Shown here: positions 6,938 to 17,125 of the stretch, in pieces
Layout of the letters: every line of letters starts with the position of its first letter
Numbering within the stretch: position 1 is the first letter of the stretch
Made by a program: the position numbers and the translations under genes
Assembly (NCBI GenBank): GCA_017538365.1
Contig: JAFYIZ010000005.1
Location: 1-52,608, forward strand
Reading direction: 5' to 3'
Length of the DNA stretch: 52,608 nt
Origin: a bacterium
GTDB taxonomy: Bacteria; UBP6; UBA1177
Notes under the pieces: generated by a model
Databases searched by the model: none
Seen by the model: the letters and a program-made list of their open reading frames with translations, nothing else
Told to the model about the DNA's origin: nothing

Positions 6938-9349
6938 TTAGAGGCAGGTTCCTAATTTCGAACCTTCCTCATTAGGAGTTTCGATGTAGGCTTTGTATGT
7001 TTCTGCATTCCAAATAGGAATAAGAACTGCATCGGAGTTGTCATAAGAGCATACAGGATGGTTTACAGGATCTATCTCGATGCCCTGATCTTCCATTTTT
7101 ACGTCCGTAACGATTGCGTTGCCAGGATAAGACTTGTTGCTTTCAGGAGACGGCAGAGAGTTGTCCCATTTAACAACGGCGATGACTTTCCATTCATTGA
7201 CATTGATTTTGAAATCTGTCGCAGAATAGTTGTCAGCCGGACGTTTGCCGTCGGAACTTGCTTTTCTCGGAGCTTCGTCACCGTCAACAAGAATTTCGAC
7301 TCTGGCGTCAACTGTATAAGCTTTGTCTTCTCCGGTGTAAGTGGAATCGCAGCGGTCTCCTGCACCATCACTGTAATTTGAAACACATGATACGTAGCCG
7401 ATGACAAGAAGATATTCATCGTCAATAACCGGAACATCGGGAACGCCGTCGCCGTTAGCATCAGTAATCGGACCCAAACCTATGGTTTCAGGTGTTTCGT
7501 AGTTGTTGCCGCCCCAAGTATTATCGATATCGAGAGAAGCATGCCATTGGATCGTTAAACCTTCATCAACACCGTCAAGACCGTTATCACCGAACGAACA
7601 GTCGTCATGGCGCCAATAAGCTTCGCATTCATCTTTGTTTGTAGATGGATCTATAGTGCCCAACGCGCAATCAACATTTCTTGCTTTTGTTCCGAGTAAT
7701 CCTTCTGTCGGCGTGAAATTATATGATCCTGCTTCAAGACTGCTCTTTTTGATCATGTGAATATCGACGTCGACGATTGTACCTTCTTTGGATTCCGATT
7801 CTGCTTTTGTTCTGAATCCCTGTTTATAGGAAAGCTGTGCAACTACACGAGCCTGCGGGATGATTTTCGGAACGACTGTTATGTCGGCCGTGTCACTGAC
7901 AAGGTCAGTTTCTTTATCAACGGTTTCAGCCTGAATGCTGATTTTGTAATATTTTGTACGTTGCTCTTCGCAGTATTTCTGGCGGCAGATAAGGTAATCT
8001 GAAAGTTTGAGGAAAAGGAACTCATCAGGATTGTTTTTGTCATATACCGGTTCGTTTCCGCATTCAGAAGCACATTTTGCAGCATCAAAATCTTTATTCT
8101 TGTTTTCTTCGCCGGGATATCTTCTCGGAGTGATCATCAAACCTGTGAAAGAAGCTCTTTTCGGGTTGCCTCTCTTTCCGTCGTCAGGAAGCCACTGACC
8201 AGCTGCAGCATCCATTTCTGAAAGTTTGAGTTTCGAATCATCAAGAAGAGGAGTCGGAGACTCTTTCATTTCCCATTTATATTTGATGTAGTATCTTTCT
8301 TCCCAGTTTGCAAGACATTTGTCAGGATGATCAGGATCGGAAACGCAGGTTTTTGAAAGATCCATATCAACTTTATCATAAATGTTTCTGTATGACATCG
8401 GCTCAGTGATAGGAGTTCTGAAGGCAACATGGATTATCGGTTTTGGCGGTTTGTTGGGCTGCCTTGTAATCTGGATACGATAGCTTGTCGAGCTTTCGCC
8501 GCAAGTATCGGTTTTGCCTTTCGTCGGATCGTTTGTGCAGATTTCGATAGAGAAATCGCCGTTAAGTCTGTAACCTTCGATAGGATTGTCCTTGAGGTAG
8601 GTTGCTGCAGCCTTGTCATAGCTGATGCGGATTTTGAATTTTGAGTTGTATTTTTTCGGGTCGAAACCTTTTTTGCAGACTTTGTCAGCGGAGTCGAGCT
8701 GAAGCGGGCAGAGTGAAGCGATTGAATCATCTTTGTTTTCGCCCAAATAGTCGAAAGTAAGTCCTTTTGCGTTGTATCCTTCAGCTGCAATGCCGTTTTC
8801 CATCTTCTGAACTTCGAGCTGGAAAAGTTTTTTGTAGTTCGGATCGCCAAGGTTTGCTATGAGTTCACCGTTCGGATCAATCATGTTGATTTTTCTGATT
8901 TTGAGTTCGCCGGTAACACCGCGGTTGTAGATTTCGAACTCTTTGGTGATTACGTCAGCAACTTCCGCTCTTACGGTTTTTACATAAACAGGAGCATCTT
9001 CTTCTATAACAGCTCCCGGTTCTCCGTCAACATCTTCATCTGATTCAGCATCATCTTCATCCGGGGTTGTTGGATCAATGTCTTCGTCAGGTTCGACATC
9101 TTCATCTGTTTCGGTCGGTTCTGTTGTCGGTTCGTCGGTCGGCTCGGTCGTCGGCTCTTCGGTCGGCTCTTCGGTTGGTTCCGCAGTCGGTTCGGTTGTG
9201 TTGTTTCCGTCATCCCACGGATAGTAAGCGAAGACCATTTTCGCCGGGTTCGACGCAATTTCGGGTTTTCCTTCAACATCGTAGCTGTTGCATGAAACGA
9301 AAGCTGAAATTCCGAGCAACAACAGTGTAACTACCAGTAATCTCTTCAT
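6938..9349 (-). CDS. large stalked lipoprotein, function unknown
   Basis: 803-residue predicted lipoprotein. The start at the ATG 9347-9349 is chosen because GGAGG lies about 10 bases upstream and gives the signal MKRLLVVTLLLLGISAFVSC with a lipobox Cys at 20. A Thr/Pro/Glu stalk of TEPT repeats and an Asp/Glu stretch follow (about 48-120). The remainder is a beta-rich, presumably periplasmic or surface portion with many Cys in the last third (CALGTIDPSTNKDECEAYW, CSFGDNGLDG), suggesting disulfide bonds. It contains Asp-rich DANGDGVPDVPVIDDE, which resembles a calcium-binding type-3 or dockerin-like loop. I do not recognise the family. It is monocistronic, with its own promoter and terminator. 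Confidence 0.85.
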   Translation of the reverse strand: MKRLLVVTLLLLGISAFVSCNSYDVEGKPEIASNPAKMVFAYYPWDDGNNTTEPTAEPTEEPTEEPTTEPTDEPTTEPTETDEDVEPDEDIDPTTPDEDDAESDEDVDGEPGAVIEEDAPVYVKTVRAEVADVITKEFEIYNRGVTGELKIRKINMIDPNGELIANLGDPNYKKLFQLEVQKMENGIAAEGYNAKGLTFDYLGENKDDSIASLCPLQLDSADKVCKKGFDPKKYNSKFKIRISYDKAAATYLKDNPIEGYRLNGDFSIEICTNDPTKGKTDTCGESSTSYRIQITRQPNKPPKPIIHVAFRTPITEPMSYRNIYDKVDMDLSKTCVSDPDHPDKCLANWEERYYIKYKWEMKESPTPLLDDSKLKLSEMDAAAGQWLPDDGKRGNPKRASFTGLMITPRRYPGEENKNKDFDAAKCASECGNEPVYDKNNPDEFLFLKLSDYLICRQKYCEEQRTKYYKISIQAETVDKETDLVSDTADITVVPKIIPQARVVAQLSYKQGFRTKAESESKEGTIVDVDIHMIKKSSLEAGSYNFTPTEGLLGTKARNVDCALGTIDPSTNKDECEAYWRHDDCSFGDNGLDGVDEGLTIQWHASLDIDNTWGGNNYETPETIGLGPITDANGDGVPDVPVIDDEYLLVIGYVSCVSNYSDGAGDRCDSTYTGEDKAYTVDARVEILVDGDEAPRKASSDGKRPADNYSATDFKINVNEWKVIAVVKWDNSLPSPESNKSYPGNAIVTDVKMEDQGIEIDPVNHPVCSYDNSDAVLIPIWNAETYKAYIETPNEEGSKLGTCL
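9109..9204 (-). repeat. 12-bp coding tandem repeat (TEPT stalk)
   Basis: Degenerate 12-base repeat within the 6938-9349 gene, about seven units, each coding a four-residue T-E-P-T type block (EPTAEPTEEPTEEPTTEPT). It is the same repeat logic as in the unrelated lipoprotein at 37585. Confidence 0.8.
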
Positions 9350-9403
9350 TTTTTCTGAACCTCCAATAAATATTCCAAGAATCACATAGCCAAACTTCGC
9401 GTA

Positions 9404-10883: not shown

Positions 10884-11756
10884 TTATTTAGTCTGGACTT
10901 TTTTGCCCAGAATTTTGCAGCCGCGCGCTTCGAGGTCGGCGACGCTGTCGAAAGAGTAAATCGAGTTCATTTCGACATCAACGAGTTTGAGTTTCGGGTG
11001 ATCATTGATCGGCGCGAGGTCGCGGAGCTGGTTATCCTGCATGTAAAGTTCTTCGAGAGACAAAAGTTTGCCGAGGACGAGGATGATGTCGATTCGGTTT
11101 ATGTTGAGGCTTAAGACTTTGAGTTTCTGCAGGGGTTTGAGCGGGAATATCTCGATTACGGCGTTGTCGTTGAGGTAGAGATACTCAAGCTCTGTGAGGT
11201 CTGCGATCTGTGCGACATCGCTTATCCTGTTGCTGTTGAGCGAAAGTTTTTTGAGCTTTTTGAGTTTTGAAAAATCGGCGAGACCCTGTATTCCGTTGCG
11301 GCTGAGGTCAAGCTCTTCAAGGTTGACTAAGTCTTTTACCGGACGCATGTCGCCGATGAAATTCTTGTCAAGGTTGAGGTAGGTGAGACCGGTCAGAGTT
11401 TCGATCGGATACATCGATGTGATCTCGTTTTCGCCGAGGTCAAGGTATTTGAGGTTTTTGAGCTGTGAGAGCATCGAAATATCAACGATCTTGTTCTTTT
11501 TCAGAACGAGTTTTTCAAGATTCGGAAGTTTTTCGATTCCTTTGATACTGTTTATGAGCGATTCGCCGAACGGGTTCGCTTTAAGCGTCTCTTCGGTGTT
11601 CGAGCAGTCAAGTTCTTGAATTTCCTCAAACTTCTTGTCAAGTTTTTTGATGCAGTTTATGAAAACTTTGTCTTCGAAGCCTTCGAAATTCTGCCCCGAA
11701 CTGCACGAAATGAACAAAAACAGAACAGAAAGGACCGGAATAAGTGAAAATTTCAT
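10884..11756 (-). CDS. leucine-rich-repeat lipoprotein (internalin-like)
   Basis: 290-residue protein with a lipoprotein signal (lipobox LFISC, Cys18) and about eight 21-22-residue leucine-rich repeats of the internalin/SDS22 type from about 70 to 270 (for example LKYLDLGENEITSMYPI and LEELDLSRNGIQGLADF). Such domains bind proteins; a surface or periplasmic interaction role is likely. The start ATG has AGAGGT upstream. It sits 20 bases after the triple-PII gene and 8 bases before the FISUMP gene, so all are probably one transcript. Its last 36 bases are duplicated downstream of the FISUMP gene. Confidence 0.9.
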   Translation of the reverse strand: MKFSLIPVLSVLFLFISCSSGQNFEGFEDKVFINCIKKLDKKFEEIQELDCSNTEETLKANPFGESLINSIKGIEKLPNLEKLVLKKNKIVDISMLSQLKNLKYLDLGENEITSMYPIETLTGLTYLNLDKNFIGDMRPVKDLVNLEELDLSRNGIQGLADFSKLKKLKKLSLNSNRISDVAQIADLTELEYLYLNDNAVIEIFPLKPLQKLKVLSLNINRIDIILVLGKLLSLEELYMQDNQLRDLAPINDHPKLKLVDVEMNSIYSFDSVADLEARGCKILGKKVQTK

Positions 11757-11776: not shown

Positions 11777-12877
11777 CTATTTTTTCTTTTTGTCGGTATA
11801 GGAAAACGCTGTTCCGCTCTTCTTGACGATGATTTTTCCGTCGGTTTTGTCGGAGAAAAATCCCGCTTTGACGAGCGCGGTAAGGATCTCTTTGCGCTGA
11901 TTCTTGCCGATGACCATATCGGAAATTTCCATTGATTTTTTCGCGAAACCGTCGTTTGTTTTGGTCATCTCGCGGCAGTTGGATATCGTTGCACCGCTTG
12001 CACCCGCCGACATAGCCGCGTCAAGCATCTCTTTCGACTGAGTGTCGTTGCAGATGAGCATGATGTTCTCGAGATTCGTGAAATATACTCTTTCAACTGC
12101 GTTTTTGGCGTTGAGAGTCCGTTTTCTCCACTCGGTGCCGCCCTGTATCGAGTCGATGACGCTGATTATCTGGCCCATGCTGGCAGCCGCGCGGTTCGCT
12201 CCGAAGAAAGTCTTCGAGTCGAGAGTCGCGAGATTTATCGGATATGAGAAAATGAATCCCATGCCGGGACGATCTAAGTGGCCTCCTTCGATGAGAAGAT
12301 CCATCATTCCCTGTGCGTCATGGTTTGCAACGGCGATGTTTATCGTCTCTTTTTCAGCAGGGATCGTGATTCGGATAAGTCCCATTCTGTCGCGGATTCC
12401 GCCGCCGATACCGTATGAGATCATCGGAACGCACGAGCCTTTGTCGATTGCGGTTTTCGCAAGTGCCAGGCCTCTTCCGCGCTGGGTGATAGCGCAGATT
12501 CCCATGTAGTTCGACGGAGTCTCTTCAAACGGGAAGTCGAATCCGTCGAAATTTTCGTTATTTTCGCTTTTTTCAATCAAAACTGCTTCTTCGGTGAATA
12601 TCGAGCCGCGTCCTTCCTGCGAGAGGTCTGCGCCGTAAACTATCTTGTCGAAAATCTCTTTTTCTTTTTCCGCCGGAACGTAGAAATGGTAAGTTTCGAG
12701 GATGTTTTCGGAGATTCCCTTACGGTTGAAAAGCCAGTGCTTGTCGGTCGAGACGATCGAGCTGCTGCGCTGTGCGATATAGTTGTCAATGCCGCATTCT
12801 TTCAGGGCTTCGGCGACTTTCGGAGAGACGTTCTTATAAACGCTGCAAGTGAATTTTGCTATATTCGTGAATTTCAT
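11777..12877 (-). CDS. triple PII-like regulatory protein
   Basis: 366-residue soluble protein built, as far as I can read it, from three PII-like modules. Each ends in a version of the PII C-terminal signature (consensus GDGKIF): GRGSIF (89-94), GMGFIF (205-210) and TDGKII (345-350). The middle module is the clearest, with GICAITQRGRGLALAKTAID and GLIRITIPAEKE before its signature. PII proteins bind nucleotides and 2-oxoglutarate and gate transporters or enzymes. Here the partner is surely the DUF1538 membrane protein, whose stop overlaps this start as TAATG with GGAGG just upstream. PII-family proteins paired with DUF1538 are known from other genomes; three fused modules and the ligand are not something I can assign. 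Confidence 0.75.
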   Translation of the reverse strand: MKFTNIAKFTCSVYKNVSPKVAEALKECGIDNYIAQRSSSIVSTDKHWLFNRKGISENILETYHFYVPAEKEKEIFDKIVYGADLSQEGRGSIFTEEAVLIEKSENNENFDGFDFPFEETPSNYMGICAITQRGRGLALAKTAIDKGSCVPMISYGIGGGIRDRMGLIRITIPAEKETINIAVANHDAQGMMDLLIEGGHLDRPGMGFIFSYPINLATLDSKTFFGANRAAASMGQIISVIDSIQGGTEWRKRTLNAKNAVERVYFTNLENIMLICNDTQSKEMLDAAMSAGASGATISNCREMTKTNDGFAKKSMEISDMVIGKNQRKEILTALVKAGFFSDKTDGKIIVKKSGTAFSYTDKKKK

Positions 12878-14790
12878 TATCTGCCTCCGTTGTTTGAAGT
12901 CTGCATTTTCTTGGCCTTGCGGCTCGCGCTGATTCCCATGAGAAGGACTGCGAGGATCGGACATGCGGAAGCCATGCTGAGGATGCCGAAACCTTCGACG
13001 ACCCCTTCAACTCTGGCACCTAAACCGAGACCCATTGCAAGGACGAGCGGAACTGTGACAGGACCTGTCGTAACACCTGCGCTGTCCCAGCCGATATTGA
13101 CATACTGCTCATCGGAAATAGCCGTCAGAACAAGGAGGATCAGGTATGAAGGAACAAGCATCCAGAAAATCTGAATGTTCCAGATGATCTTGACTGCTCC
13201 GAGCGCGATGCCCAAACCTACGCCGAAAGCAACTGCGTAGATCAGAGTCGTTTTCTTGAAAGTACCGACAGAAAGTTCTTCTACTTTCATGCCGAGCGCA
13301 TTCAAAGCGGGTTCGGCAAGTGTCGCTCCGAAGCCCATGATGAATGCGAAAAGAATGACTATCAGGTATCCGCCGCTGCCGCCGTTTTTGCCGAAAATGG
13401 GGCCAATCTGCGGAATGTAGCGGTAGATTTTTCTCGGTTCGTCGTAGTTTTTCTCAACGAACGGGATCTGCGAGTATTTGTTTTCGCCCTCTTTTTTGAA
13501 GAAAAATTCGTTGACTTCGCCGTCAGGCGTGATCGATTTCTGAACGATCTCCTTGTCGAAATTGTGCATCGTTTCCTGACTGTCGCTCAGTTCTATCGCG
13601 CTGAAAGAAGCGGGAAGACGCGAGCCGACCTGCGTTCCGATCTTGGAAAGGCCGTATTCCATGCCGATACCGAAAAGTCCCATGCCGAGAATAGAAATGA
13701 AAATTCCGAGGAAAATTTCATCCTTTTTCGGCAGTTTTTCACGCAGAAGAACGACGAAAACAAGAAGAATGAAGATGGTGAGCGGAAGGATCGCCTTTGC
13801 CGCTTCGAAGAATTTTGTGCTTACGACATTAAAGAGGTTAATTGCCTCTTCAACTGCTTCGTTAGCCGAAAGAGTTGCTTCGGAAAACTGCTGTTTTACA
13901 GCTTCGAATCTCTCTTCCGTTCCGACTATCTGGAGAGCTTTCTCGTGGTTGGAAACACTGAAGAAATCTGCCTGCGACATCGGTTCCGGCAGGCTCATGT
14001 TGAGTGCCGCGCCGAAAATGTAAACAGCCAGGATCGGGAATGCGCTGGCAAGTGTTACGACACCGAAACCCATCGAATCGCTGTCTTCGCCGCCGACTGT
14101 CCTGCAGATACCGATACCGAGCGCAAGAACAAGCGGAACTGTGACAGGACCGGTCGTGACTGCGCCGCAATCCCAAGCCAAACCCGTGATATAAAGCAGG
14201 TTCTGATCAAAAACGCCCCAGATCGTGAAGATGAGAAGGAGCGGAATGACTATTAAAATAAAAGGTTTGAGCGAGATCGACTTCATGAAGCGGAGCATAC
14301 CGGCGATGACCGCGATGCCGACACCGATCCCGACGAATGCGACAAGATATTCGGCGTGCTGGTTGAGCATCACGAAGAGCAGGGGAGCTTCCCACGGCTT
14401 TACGAAAGAGCCGTTCGCCTTGAGGATCGCGATCGAAGGTTCGGCGTAAGTCGCACCGAAACCGAGGATGAAGCTGAACGCGATGATCGTGAAAAGCCCG
14501 CTTTTAAGCGGCAGTTTGATACCCAGAATTTCGCCGAGCGGCATGATTCCGAGGAAAAGACCTTCGAGGAAGAAGGCAAGACCTAAGATTACAAGGCCGA
14601 TACCTACCGAAATGACGCCTGCTTCGTAGATCGGCATGCCGAGGATCATCGACTGGAAAAGAATGAGGTAGATGACTACCGGAAGGACGGAAACGAGCTG
14701 TTCCTTCAGCTTGTCCTTGCAGAAGCCGAGCAGCATCATCATTGACTGTTTCAGCGGAATTTTGAGTTTTTCCTGTTTGTTAGAAGCCAT
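12877..14790 (-). CDS. duplicated DUF1538 integral membrane protein
   Basis: 637-residue polytopic membrane protein containing the DUF1538 domain twice. The internal duplication is visible in paired motifs: ILGFGATYAEPSIAIL and IMGFGATLAEPALNAL, then AVTTGPVTVPLVLALGIGI and GVTTGPVTVPLVLAMGLGL, then ASAFPILAVYIFG and ASACPILAVLLMG. Such inverted or direct duplications are typical of transporters and channels, but the substrate is unknown. I start at the second ATG (14788-14790) because GGAG sits 7 bases upstream; the ATG at 14802 has no ribosome site. It is the first gene of the operon with the PII-like regulator, which probably controls its activity. Confidence 0.88.
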   Translation of the reverse strand: MASNKQEKLKIPLKQSMMMLLGFCKDKLKEQLVSVLPVVIYLILFQSMILGMPIYEAGVISVGIGLVILGLAFFLEGLFLGIMPLGEILGIKLPLKSGLFTIIAFSFILGFGATYAEPSIAILKANGSFVKPWEAPLLFVMLNQHAEYLVAFVGIGVGIAVIAGMLRFMKSISLKPFILIVIPLLLIFTIWGVFDQNLLYITGLAWDCGAVTTGPVTVPLVLALGIGICRTVGGEDSDSMGFGVVTLASAFPILAVYIFGAALNMSLPEPMSQADFFSVSNHEKALQIVGTEERFEAVKQQFSEATLSANEAVEEAINLFNVVSTKFFEAAKAILPLTIFILLVFVVLLREKLPKKDEIFLGIFISILGMGLFGIGMEYGLSKIGTQVGSRLPASFSAIELSDSQETMHNFDKEIVQKSITPDGEVNEFFFKKEGENKYSQIPFVEKNYDEPRKIYRYIPQIGPIFGKNGGSGGYLIVILFAFIMGFGATLAEPALNALGMKVEELSVGTFKKTTLIYAVAFGVGLGIALGAVKIIWNIQIFWMLVPSYLILLVLTAISDEQYVNIGWDSAGVTTGPVTVPLVLAMGLGLGARVEGVVEGFGILSMASACPILAVLLMGISASRKAKKMQTSNNGGR

Positions 14791-14962: not shown

Positions 14963-15307
14963 ATGAAAATAAGTGAAATCGTTAAACTTCTCGATGCAAA
15001 GATCGTTTGCGGGGAAGAGTTTGCCGACCGCGAGATCGAGAGAGCTTTCGCGTCTGACTTGATGAGTGACGTTCTTACTACTCCTTTTGACAACGGAATT
15101 CTGATCACGGGACTTGCAAATCCGCAGTCGGTAAGGACGGCAGACATGATGGATGTTTCGGTTATACTTCTCGCAAGGAAGAAAAGGGCGACCGAAGAGA
15201 TGATCAGTTTAGCTAAGGAAAACGATGCGGTGATAATCGAGTGTCCGCTCTCTGTTTTCCACATTTCGGGAATACTTTTCGAGCACGGATTGAAGCCGGT
15301 TTATTGA
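14963..15307 (+). CDS. DRTGG-domain protein
   Basis: 114-residue protein of the small DRTGG family (related to the N-terminal, non-catalytic part of HPr kinase regulators), with the characteristic SDLMSDVLTTPFDNGILITG and later VSVILLARKKRATEEMI. There is no kinase motif. The function is unproven, but in clostridia and Thermotogae these genes stand beside [FeFe]-hydrogenase and anti-sigma-like ATPase genes, as here. A paralog lies at 22497. It begins with an ATG after AAGGTG and is 17 bases before the HATPase gene. Confidence 0.82.
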   Translation: MKISEIVKLLDAKIVCGEEFADREIERAFASDLMSDVLTTPFDNGILITGLANPQSVRTADMMDVSVILLARKKRATEEMISLAKENDAVIIECPLSVFHISGILFEHGLKPVY

Positions 15308-15324
15308 TTTTTTTAGGGTGAGCC

Positions 15325-15738
15325 ATGAAATTCGAATATCACGTGGAAGGCGGAGATTTCCTCAACGCAGGCAACGCTTCGGGCAACATCAAAAAGGTTT
15401 TGAAAAAACTCAATGTCGATCCCGGCGTGCTTAAACGTGTGGTCGTCGCGCTTTACGAAGCCGAAGTCAACATCGTGGCGCATGCTTACCGCGGAAACAT
15501 CACCGCTGATATTTCACCTCAGAAGATAGAGATAGTTCTCGACGACGAAGGCCCGGGAATCCCCGACATCGGTCTTGCGATGCAGCAGGGTTATTCGACC
15601 GCTTCGACAAAAGTGCGCGAGATGGGTTTCGGCGCCGGAATGGGACTGCCGAACATCAAGGCAAACACTGACGATATGAAGATTGAAAGCGTTGTAGGCA
15701 AGGGGACGAAGCTCACGCTCTCGTTTAATCTCGCCTGA
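15325..15738 (+). CDS. anti-sigma-factor-type ATP-binding protein (HATPase)
   Basis: 137-residue stand-alone GHKL ATPase of the RsbW/SpoIIAB class. The N box is EAEVNIVAHAY, the G1 box DDEGPGIPD and the G2 box GFGAGMGLPN. Members act as protein kinases or switch proteins in partner-switching systems; the target here is unknown. The gene follows the DRTGG gene and is 10 bases before the hydrogenase-like sensor, so it likely belongs to an H2- or redox-sensing relay. Confidence 0.85.
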   Translation: MKFEYHVEGGDFLNAGNASGNIKKVLKKLNVDPGVLKRVVVALYEAEVNIVAHAYRGNITADISPQKIEIVLDDEGPGIPDIGLAMQQGYSTASTKVREMGFGAGMGLPNIKANTDDMKIESVVGKGTKLTLSFNLA

Positions 15739-15748
15739 CGGAGGGTAA

Positions 15749-17125
15749 ATGTCCAATCGTAAAAGACCTTTTTTTCACCACACACTTAGGATAAACAAAA
15801 ACAAATGCATAGGCTGCACGCACTGCATGAGGACCTGTCCCACAGACGCGATCAGGATCCGCGGCGGAAAGGCTTCGGTGAACCCTGACAAGTGCGTTGA
15901 CTGCGGAATGTGCATGATATCGTGCAAACACGACGCGATACTGGTAGAGCAGGACGATTTCCAGAAAATTTTCGACTACAAATACCGCGTTGCGCTCATT
16001 CCGTCGGTATTTCTCGGCCAGTTTGACGAGAACGCCGGTGCAAAACTGATATTCAAAGGTCTTCAAAGCGTAGGTTTTACGCATGTTTACGAGGTTTCGC
16101 GTGCTTCAGCCCTTTTTGAAGAGGCGCAGAAGGAGTATGAAAAGAAGGATGAAGCTGAATTCCCGCTGATATCTTCTTTCTGTCCTGCGGTCATAAGGCT
16201 TATCCAGGTGCGTTTCCCCTCGCTGCTCAAGCATATCGCTCTTGTAAAGCCTCCGCTTGATATTGCCGCGGTTCACTGCCGCAACGAACTCAAGAAAACT
16301 GGAATCAATCCGACGGAAATAGGGATTTTCTACGTTTCACCGTGCGCTGCGAAGATCGTCGCGATCAAACACCCGGTAGGTGAGAAAAAATCGAATATCG
16401 ACGGCGTCATCAATATGGATTTCATCTATAACAAGATCTATCCTTTCGTGTCGCACCACAAAAAAGACGATGAAACGCTCTGCCGTCCGGCAGACAACGA
16501 CCATGTTGCGTGGGAACTTACAGGCGGAGAGTGCATGAGACGCGACAACCACGCGATGGCGATTGACGGAATCCACAATGTAATCGAGATACTGGACAAA
16601 CTTGAAAACGGAGACCTTGACGAGAACATAAATTTCCTTGAACTCAGGGCATGCGATGAAAGCTGCGCCGGAGGAATCCTTGTTCCGGGAAACCGTTTCC
16701 TGACAGTCAGAAACCTTTTCCAGCGCGAGAATCTGCCATCGTGCAATGTTGCAAAATCGGATAAAAACGATCCGGCATGTGCAAACTGCAGCCTTTTCGG
16801 CAAATGCGGGAAGGAATATCTCAAAGAGGCATTAAACCTTGAAAAACTTCAGCCGAGATCGATGCTTTCGCTCGACGATGACATGGAAAAAGCGCTCGAA
16901 AAAATGGAGCACGTCGATACGATCATGCAGGTCCTTCCCAATATCGACTGCGGAATGTGCGGCTCTCCTTCATGCCAGTCTCTTGCAGAGGATATCGCAC
17001 GCGGCATCGCAGAGATCGACCAGTGCGTTTTCTTAAGGATCACGGCTACAAAAGACTCCGAAGATGTAAAGACCTTAAAAGAATCTGTCCGCAACGTCTG
17101 GGGCAGGATCAATAATAACGAATAA
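15749..17125 (+). CDS. sensor-type [FeFe]-hydrogenase-like protein
   Basis: 458-residue iron-sulfur protein. Two [4Fe-4S] motifs open it (CIGCTHCMRTCP at 20-31 and CVDCGMCMISCK at 49-60). A Fe-hydrogenase large-subunit-type domain follows (about 75-330). A Cys-rich end (C344, C347, C353) and a final FeS domain (CGMCGSPSC, 401-409, plus C426) complete it. The four H-cluster-ligand Cys are recognisable: Cys145 in SSFCP, Cys199 in SPCAAK, and Cys302 and Cys306 in ACDESCAGG. Catalytic enzymes have TSCCP; here the proton-relay Cys is Phe144, as in putative sensory hydrogenases. It is therefore likely an H2 or redox sensor rather than a turnover enzyme (inference). It ends the DRTGG-HATPase unit. 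Confidence 0.85.
   Translation: MSNRKRPFFHHTLRINKNKCIGCTHCMRTCPTDAIRIRGGKASVNPDKCVDCGMCMISCKHDAILVEQDDFQKIFDYKYRVALIPSVFLGQFDENAGAKLIFKGLQSVGFTHVYEVSRASALFEEAQKEYEKKDEAEFPLISSFCPAVIRLIQVRFPSLLKHIALVKPPLDIAAVHCRNELKKTGINPTEIGIFYVSPCAAKIVAIKHPVGEKKSNIDGVINMDFIYNKIYPFVSHHKKDDETLCRPADNDHVAWELTGGECMRRDNHAMAIDGIHNVIEILDKLENGDLDENINFLELRACDESCAGGILVPGNRFLTVRNLFQRENLPSCNVAKSDKNDPACANCSLFGKCGKEYLKEALNLEKLQPRSMLSLDDDMEKALEKMEHVDTIMQVLPNIDCGMCGSPSCQSLAEDIARGIAEIDQCVFLRITATKDSEDVKTLKESVRNVWGRINNNE

Follow-up and report, generated by a model that had tools for sequence, protein, structure and literature searches.

A fused DUF1538 transporter is encoded with three PII modules in one chain, a candidate pseudo-trimeric regulator

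Introduction

In two described pairs of a PII-type protein and a transporter, GlnK-AmtB and SbtB-SbtA, both partners are trimers, and the docked PII protein plugs the transporter exits with its T-loops (PMC8352866); GlnK sits as a homotrimer on the trimeric channel AmtB (PMC10710835). For the membrane protein family DUF1538, the described example is UmpAB of Halomonas zhaodongensis, a Na+(Li+,K+)/H+ antiporter composed of two separate proteins, UmpA and UmpB, that form a heterodimer, and its antiport activity was seen in E. coli with no further partner (PMC5484666). Here we describe a locus in a 52,608-nucleotide stretch of DNA (the window; contig JAFYIZ010000005.1, assembly GCA_017538365.1) from a bacterium of the UBP6 lineage, where the gene for a fused DUF1538 protein overlaps a gene whose 366-residue product is three PII modules arranged end to end in one chain. 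In the open-access literature we found neither the DUF1538-PII pairing nor a triple-PII chain described, which is not proof of absence.

The reading that we favor, with a probability of roughly 60%, is that this pair is a UmpAB-type monovalent-cation/proton antiporter together with a dedicated PII-type regulator, a pseudo-trimer that gates transport by means of one T-loop.

Results

The 366-residue protein is three PII modules in one chain

The gene and its parts lie in the window as follows.

11777..12877, minus strand: triple-PII protein, 366 amino acids plus stop (hhalign against GlnB/GlnK and DUF1538-linked PII profiles; AlphaFold2)
12875..12879, minus strand: TAATG stop/start overlap, TAA and ATG sharing base 12877
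12572..12874, minus strand: PII module 1, residues 2-102; B-loop GRGSIF kept, T-loop glycines and K58 equivalent lost
12224..12508, minus strand: PII module 2, residues 124-218; the one complete module, nearest to single-gene PII partners (hhalign 99.8%, conservation)
12347..12412, minus strand: module-2 T-loop region, residues 156-177, GIGGGIRDRMGLIRITIPAEKE; best-conserved stretch, low model confidence
12239..12280, minus strand: module-2 B-loop, residues 200-213, HLDRPGMGFIFSYP
12122..12190, minus strand: linker between modules 2 and 3 with a conserved helix and WR motif, residues 230-252 (alignment, model)
11792..12082, minus strand: PII module 3, residues 266-362; a shortened beta hairpin replaces the T-loop, degenerate B-loop TDGKII

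A reading of this DNA made earlier from the sequence alone (the sequence-only reading) had the coordinates, strand and lengths of both genes and their overlap right, and its proposal of three PII-type modules in one chain held up. An alignment of 47 members of the 366-residue family was cut into the three modules for hhalign, and the GlnB/GlnK reference profile was built from genes unlinked to DUF1538. Against this profile, modules 1, 2 and 3 scored 36.1 (probability 87.5), 33.5 (78.2) and 42.8 (93.6), each in register over 85-92 columns, compared to a maximum of 22.1 among 60 column-shuffled versions per module, well above chance, and chance motif matches were rejected as the source of the PII signatures. 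The probabilities against PII genes that adjoin DUF1538 elsewhere were 98.7, 99.8 and 98.8. As a refuting test set beforehand, the sequence-only reading had asked whether its three named segments, GRGSIF (residue 89), GMGFIF (205) and TDGKII (345), lie at equivalent places; all three fell on the B-loop columns (GDGKIF) of the independent GlnB/GlnK profile.

The structure prediction proposed at the same time gave a similar answer. An AlphaFold2 model computed with the 47-homologue alignment (predicted local distance difference test, pLDDT, 85.4; predicted template modeling score, pTM, 0.85) displayed the order E-H-E-E-H-E three times, that is, three ferredoxin-like beta-alpha-beta-beta-alpha-beta units, and not a PII fold in one region only. 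With this single-chain pTM, packing of the three modules as one pseudo-trimer is probable. Modeling without an alignment reached a pLDDT of only 35. With the AlphaFold2 model as query, Foldseek returned many PII chains from the PDB at probability 1.00 and with template modeling (TM) scores of up to 0.76 by target length, the module matched not being specified; the first-ranked entry, 9lmn, was rejected as spurious (TM 0.19).

Searches with the protein alone were much less telling. Pfam P-II matched inside module 3 with 15.9 bits (E=0.016), under its cut-off of 25, and a PDB search with the single sequence gave sub-threshold matches to modules 2 and 3, among them GlnK1 to module 2 at E=0.06. 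Among the 47 relatives, 23 matched Pfam P-II at E<=1, the best at 3.1e-8. The one-module reading that Pfam and NCBIfam suggest for the window protein alone, from the weak match in module 3, was overturned by the profile comparisons. A further profile, in which frames were taken from stop to stop, includes some untranslated upstream residues, and these produced odd weak Pfam side hits.

The DUF1538 protein is a fusion of UmpA-like and UmpB-like halves by best match

The transporter gene lies directly upstream, with these features.

12877..14790, minus strand: DUF1538 protein, 637 amino acids plus stop, fused UmpA-UmpB type transporter (Pfam PF07556, NCBIfam)
14008..14712, minus strand: N-terminal DUF1538 half, residues 27-261, UmpA-like (UmpA 115 versus UmpB 59 bits)
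12931..13779, minus strand: C-terminal DUF1538 half, residues 338-620, UmpB-like (UmpB 109 versus UmpA 92 bits)
14122..14157, minus strand: TTGPVTVPLVLA, copy 1, residues 212-223
13036..13071, minus strand: TTGPVTVPLVLA, copy 2, residues 574-585
14437..14460, minus strand: FGATYAEP, residues 111-118
13309..13332, minus strand: FGATLAEP, residues 487-494
13384..13644, minus strand: 87-residue hydrophilic loop, residues 383-469, in the UmpB-like half (hydropathy, charge)

The two internal copies described in the sequence-only reading were confirmed: PF07556 matched in two stretches (E=3.9e-106, 353.5 bits, above the Pfam cut-off), and BLASTP of one half against the other gave 39% identity over 165 residues (E=2.5e-22). 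Each half carries one copy of TTGPVTVPLVLA and one of FGAT[YL]AEP. Hydropathy together with positive-inside charges suggests an inverted arrangement of the two halves, and by the same measures the loops at residues 269-325 and 383-469 are probably external.

That DUF1538 lacks an assigned substrate, as had been thought, is incorrect given the UmpAB work (PMC5484666), and cation/proton exchange by the 637-residue protein would follow by relation to UmpAB. A tool that predicts optimal growth pH from genomes counts DUF1538 among its key families (PMC13255231), which fits a role in pH and cation homeostasis. Against the UmpAB equivalogs NF041627 and NF041628, the whole protein scored 195 and 158 bits, and the curated cut-offs are 490 and 500; because both halves fall far below these cut-offs, the substrate may differ from that of UmpAB. 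No UmpA equivalog above its curated cut-off was found in the 23 and 368 genomes searched.

This leaves room for a transporter whose cargo is not Na+/K+ but, say, ammonium or some other cation, with the PII modules signaling nitrogen or carbon status as ordinary PII proteins do. PII proteins are classical reporters of nitrogen state, the halves are only distant relatives of UmpA and UmpB, and the host genome is without Amt and an ordinary PII, all of which would suit such a system. However, the sole characterized DUF1538 members are Na+(Li+,K+)/H+ antiporters, and in the triple-PII protein the ATP residues are absent and the canonical Q39 is replaced, so we judge other cargo decidedly unlikely and retain a monovalent-cation/proton antiporter as the preferred reading.

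DUF1538 genes are linked to PII genes across phyla

The linkage of DUF1538 and PII genes is general and extends across phyla. In a sample of 386 genomes, with DUF1538 counted above its cut-off, PII modules were adjacent at 46 of 47 DUF1538 loci, in agreement with the earlier proposal of a dedicated pairing. Within the window's own order, DUF1538 occurs in 22 genomes, and in every one of them the triple protein adjoins it, complete or truncated at a contig end. The other genomes with DUF1538 (21, with 25 loci) have an adjacent PII gene at 24 loci, the exception being one locus (G063, L031). A survey of neighbors for single versus fused modules, proposed together with the pairing, turned up both kinds, with one to three modules: single genes, tandem pairs, fused doubles (G133 and G148), a single gene plus a fused double (G203), and triples outside the own order (G118, G146, G159, G296 and one locus of G338). 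In split UmpA-like pairs (381-423 bits with the UmpA model), a single PII gene follows directly downstream at 29 of 30 loci.

Complete records show the same arrangements, with single PII genes of 112-122 residues beside DUF1538 in Chelativorans and Methylocystis and double ones of about 222 residues in Peptoclostridium, Paraclostridium and Vescimonas. RefSeq annotates the DUF1538-adjoining PII genes of the named complete records as 'P-II family nitrogen regulator'.

Scanning genome contigs yielded 57 triple loci, most of them from metagenome-assembled genomes. By record name they belong to Spirochaetes, Desulfobacterales, Gemmatimonadetes, Calditrichaeota, Latescibacterota, Salinivirgaceae, Verrucomicrobia, Bdellovibrionales, Syntrophomonadaceae and the own rumen group (UBP6), so that a triplication confined to the window's genus was rejected. 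A fused DUF1538 gene lies upstream in 54 of the 54 triple loci that have upstream sequence, the remaining 3 beginning at a contig edge. The spacing of stop and start is identical in same-genus loci, and translational coupling through the TAATG overlap is likely. Fused DUF1538 proteins encoded with a triple PII measure 636-742 residues (n=53) versus 499-608 residues with other or no PII (n=15), two disjoint ranges (p = 4e-9, a value that overstates independence, many loci being close relatives). The loops at residues 269-325 and 383-469 make up much of the extra length. No 366-residue triple protein was found in the plasmid search.

Several loci had features of their own. One genome, G338, has two tandem DUF1538-PII cassettes (L140, 3-4569), the first with one PII gene and the second with two, and a triple PII at its third locus (L141). 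At the G203 locus (L134, 4809-6059), a single PII gene is followed by the fused double, for three modules in total. An open reading frame 3' of a DUF1538-PII-PII group (L029, 2150-3210, minus strand) resembles a further membrane transporter, and in G015 (L016/L025, about 2164-2532) the triple-PII gene seems to carry a frameshift close to a run of N, with the last module in another frame.

Only module 2 retains the T-loop and the K58 equivalent

The three modules have not been conserved equally. In module 2, the T-loop base glycines are kept in 20/20 and 19/20, the K58 equivalent in 20/20, and both B-loop glycines remain; K176 of this module aligns with PII K58 in an unforced alignment to GlnK1. 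Module 1 retains only the B-loop. In module 3, Arg occupies the K58 column in 14/20, G87 is lost, the hairpin is shortened and the B-loop is worn. From the ATP/2-oxoglutarate set Q39, K58, K90, R101 and R103, only the K58 equivalent of module 2 is left, with the canonical Q39 replaced. K90, R101 and R103 are required for canonical ATP binding in GlnB/GlnK, and they are conserved in none of the three modules nor in the single PII partners. The column of Y51, the modifiable T-loop tyrosine, is gapped or replaced in each module.

These results run counter to the expectation of three distinct ligand sites, and one working site with one working T-loop, both in module 2, is the better reading. Identity as an ordinary nitrogen PII of the GlnB/GlnK kind was rejected, given 366 residues versus a homotrimer of about 112-residue chains and the loss of the ATP residues and Y51. 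A ligand bound in the canonical ATP mode of GlnB is unlikely. Given that neither the three modules nor the single partners have the canonical ATP residues, nucleotide sensing can be put forward only as a possibility.

One nucleotide that deserves separate consideration is cyclic di-AMP, a second messenger in potassium control, which the regulator could read and thereby tie to cation efflux. The host genome has a diadenylate cyclase gene, and PstA provides a precedent for a PII-like receptor of cyclic di-AMP (PMC4475381, PMC4316997). However, no sequence match to PstA was recognized in PDB structure searches or Pfam, and such cyclase genes are widespread, occurring in 11 of 14 control genomes. 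We thus regard cyclic di-AMP as an improbable ligand.

Conservation across the whole protein points to the same module. The best-conserved 13-residue window spans 165-177, and of the eight highest-ranking windows seven lie in the module-2 T-loop region. Mean conservation is 2.94 bits in module 2; in modules 1 and 3 the T-loop regions average 1.76 bits, versus 2.32 for the protein. AlphaFold2 confidence is lowest at residues 166-171 and 256-259; a loop that is both conserved and floppy, as in module 2, would be expected of one that becomes ordered on a partner. In the linker between modules 2 and 3, Q236, D242, W250 and R251 are invariant in the 47 sequences, and residues 234-245 form a helix in the AlphaFold2 model.

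The same data bear on two further explanations. The pseudo-trimer may activate or stabilize the antiporter, or be an obligatory cytosolic subunit, as opposed to a removable inhibitor; the near-universal linkage and tight gene overlap would fit a constitutive subunit equally, as would a ligand pocket without the canonical ATP residues. Yet UmpAB alone was active in E. coli, so that a PII subunit is not obligatory there, and the conserved loop of low model confidence resembles a switch, which leads us to consider an activator or subunit unlikely, with some modest chance of being right. The triple protein could also be an enzyme on a PII-type trimer scaffold, its link to DUF1538 being metabolic and not regulatory. 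PII-like enzymes do exist, as exemplified by the SAM-AMP lyases (PMC12255297), but the transporter linkage at nearly all loci and the fact that the best-conserved segment is a T-loop, with no evident catalytic motif, make an enzyme highly improbable. A regulator that gates the antiporter is the reading we carry forward.

The modules appear to stem from one triplication, and doubles from other routes

In a tree of 112 modules over 104 columns, many forks of which are not resolved, modules 1, 2 and 3 each formed one clade across phyla, with support of 99/95, 77/63 and 100/97, and these clades appeared in 100, 78 and 100% of the bootstrap trees. The simplest reading is a single triplication followed by fixed module roles. 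The N-terminal modules of Clostridia-type doubles, except for the long-branched one of G148, clustered with the genes that come first in tandem pairs (98/95); therefore, these doubles arose by another route than the triples. In the fused double of G203, both modules trace back to the second of the two tandem-pair genes. The DUF1538-linked family has left the PII homotrimer by several independent routes, namely the tandem pair, the fused double, a single gene joined by a fused double, and the triple, in what looks like the repeated locking of heteromeric PII trimers into a fixed make-up. Among solved structures, PDB 9p1x gave the best match to the single PIIs linked to DUF1538 (6.6e-11). It contains two different PII chains, 12 of one and 6 of the other, a ratio that fits 2:1 heterotrimers and hints that such PII heterotrimers exist.

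Genomic surroundings of the pair

No PF00543 PII and no Amt (ammonium channel) was found in a search of the window's genome. The triple protein is therefore the host's only recognizable PII-type protein, and classical nitrogen control is not evident. Beside the pair, a divergent group (14963-17125, plus strand) encodes a DRTGG-domain protein just below the cut-off, an anti-sigma-type HATPase, and a protein with an Fe-only hydrogenase C-terminal domain and 4Fe-4S and FeS domains; its make-up suggests a sensory hydrogenase group. The triple-PII gene is followed directly by one for a putative lipoprotein with leucine-rich repeats (10884-11756, minus strand), and farther along by one for an 815-residue secreted-looking protein with a disordered PT/EPTEEPT repeat near its N-terminus (6938-9385, minus strand).

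Discussion

By analogy with GlnK in AmtB and SbtB in SbtA, we infer that the T-loop blocks the antiporter. The three modules would fold into one pseudo-trimer that docks to the fused antiporter from the cytosol, with modules 1 and 3 serving as scaffold. A ligand at the module-2 pocket (the G35/G37-type loop base, K176 and the B-loop glycines), probably a small anionic metabolite or nucleotide bound outside the canonical ATP mode, would set the shape of the single module-2 T-loop, and this loop would insert into the antiporter and block exchange when the cell should not swap cations for protons. UmpAB is a heterodimer, and a single T-loop would suit a transporter that is not a trimer and offers one docking place. 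The conserved linkage matches a regulatory pair of the GlnK-AmtB or SbtB-SbtA type; the complex and the block of transport are predictions. We propose more tentatively, as something a little short of an even chance, that the triple protein is a PII regulator without threefold symmetry, an asymmetric one-chain pseudo-trimer whose single working T-loop and pocket are matched to a non-trimeric antiporter.

Several observations weigh against these proposals. The UmpA and UmpB equivalog cut-offs lie far above the scores of the two halves, so the substrate may be another, and the triple protein misses the Pfam P-II cut-off (15.9 versus 25 bits) and the canonical ATP residues. Moreover, single PII partners, with three identical T-loops, serve the same transporter family, so that one T-loop is not generally required, and the fused two-module partners give no simple trimer.

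Should the preferred reading hold, an orphan antiporter family would gain a near-universal regulatory partner, and cation and pH homeostasis would be linked to PII signaling. The natural series of one to three PII modules offers a view of how a symmetric signaling trimer turns asymmetric, and the claim that PII controls only trimeric transporters becomes testable.

Among known systems, UmpAB is the homologous DUF1538 pair, the N-terminal half of the window protein being nearest to UmpA and the C-terminal half to UmpB. UmpAB consists of two proteins, whereas here one 637-residue chain carries two extra hydrophilic loops, and the 2017 paper on UmpAB (PMC5484666) has zero mentions of PII. The single, paired and double PII genes beside DUF1538 belong to the same family and occupy the same genomic place as the triple, but have one or two modules in place of three, and the triple arose separately. 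PDB 9p1x, structurally the nearest to the single partners, differs in that its chains are separate. GlnK-AmtB shares with our locus a PII gene beside a transporter thought to be gated; there a homotrimer sits on a trimeric channel, whereas here one chain of three unlike modules would meet a two-part antiporter. In SbtB-SbtA, likewise, one operon encodes a PII-like protein and a secondary transporter of inverted repeats, the tunnel exit of which is blocked by a T-loop (PMC8352866), but both partners are homotrimers and SbtB, with three T-loops, binds AMP, unlike the triple-PII/DUF1538 pair.

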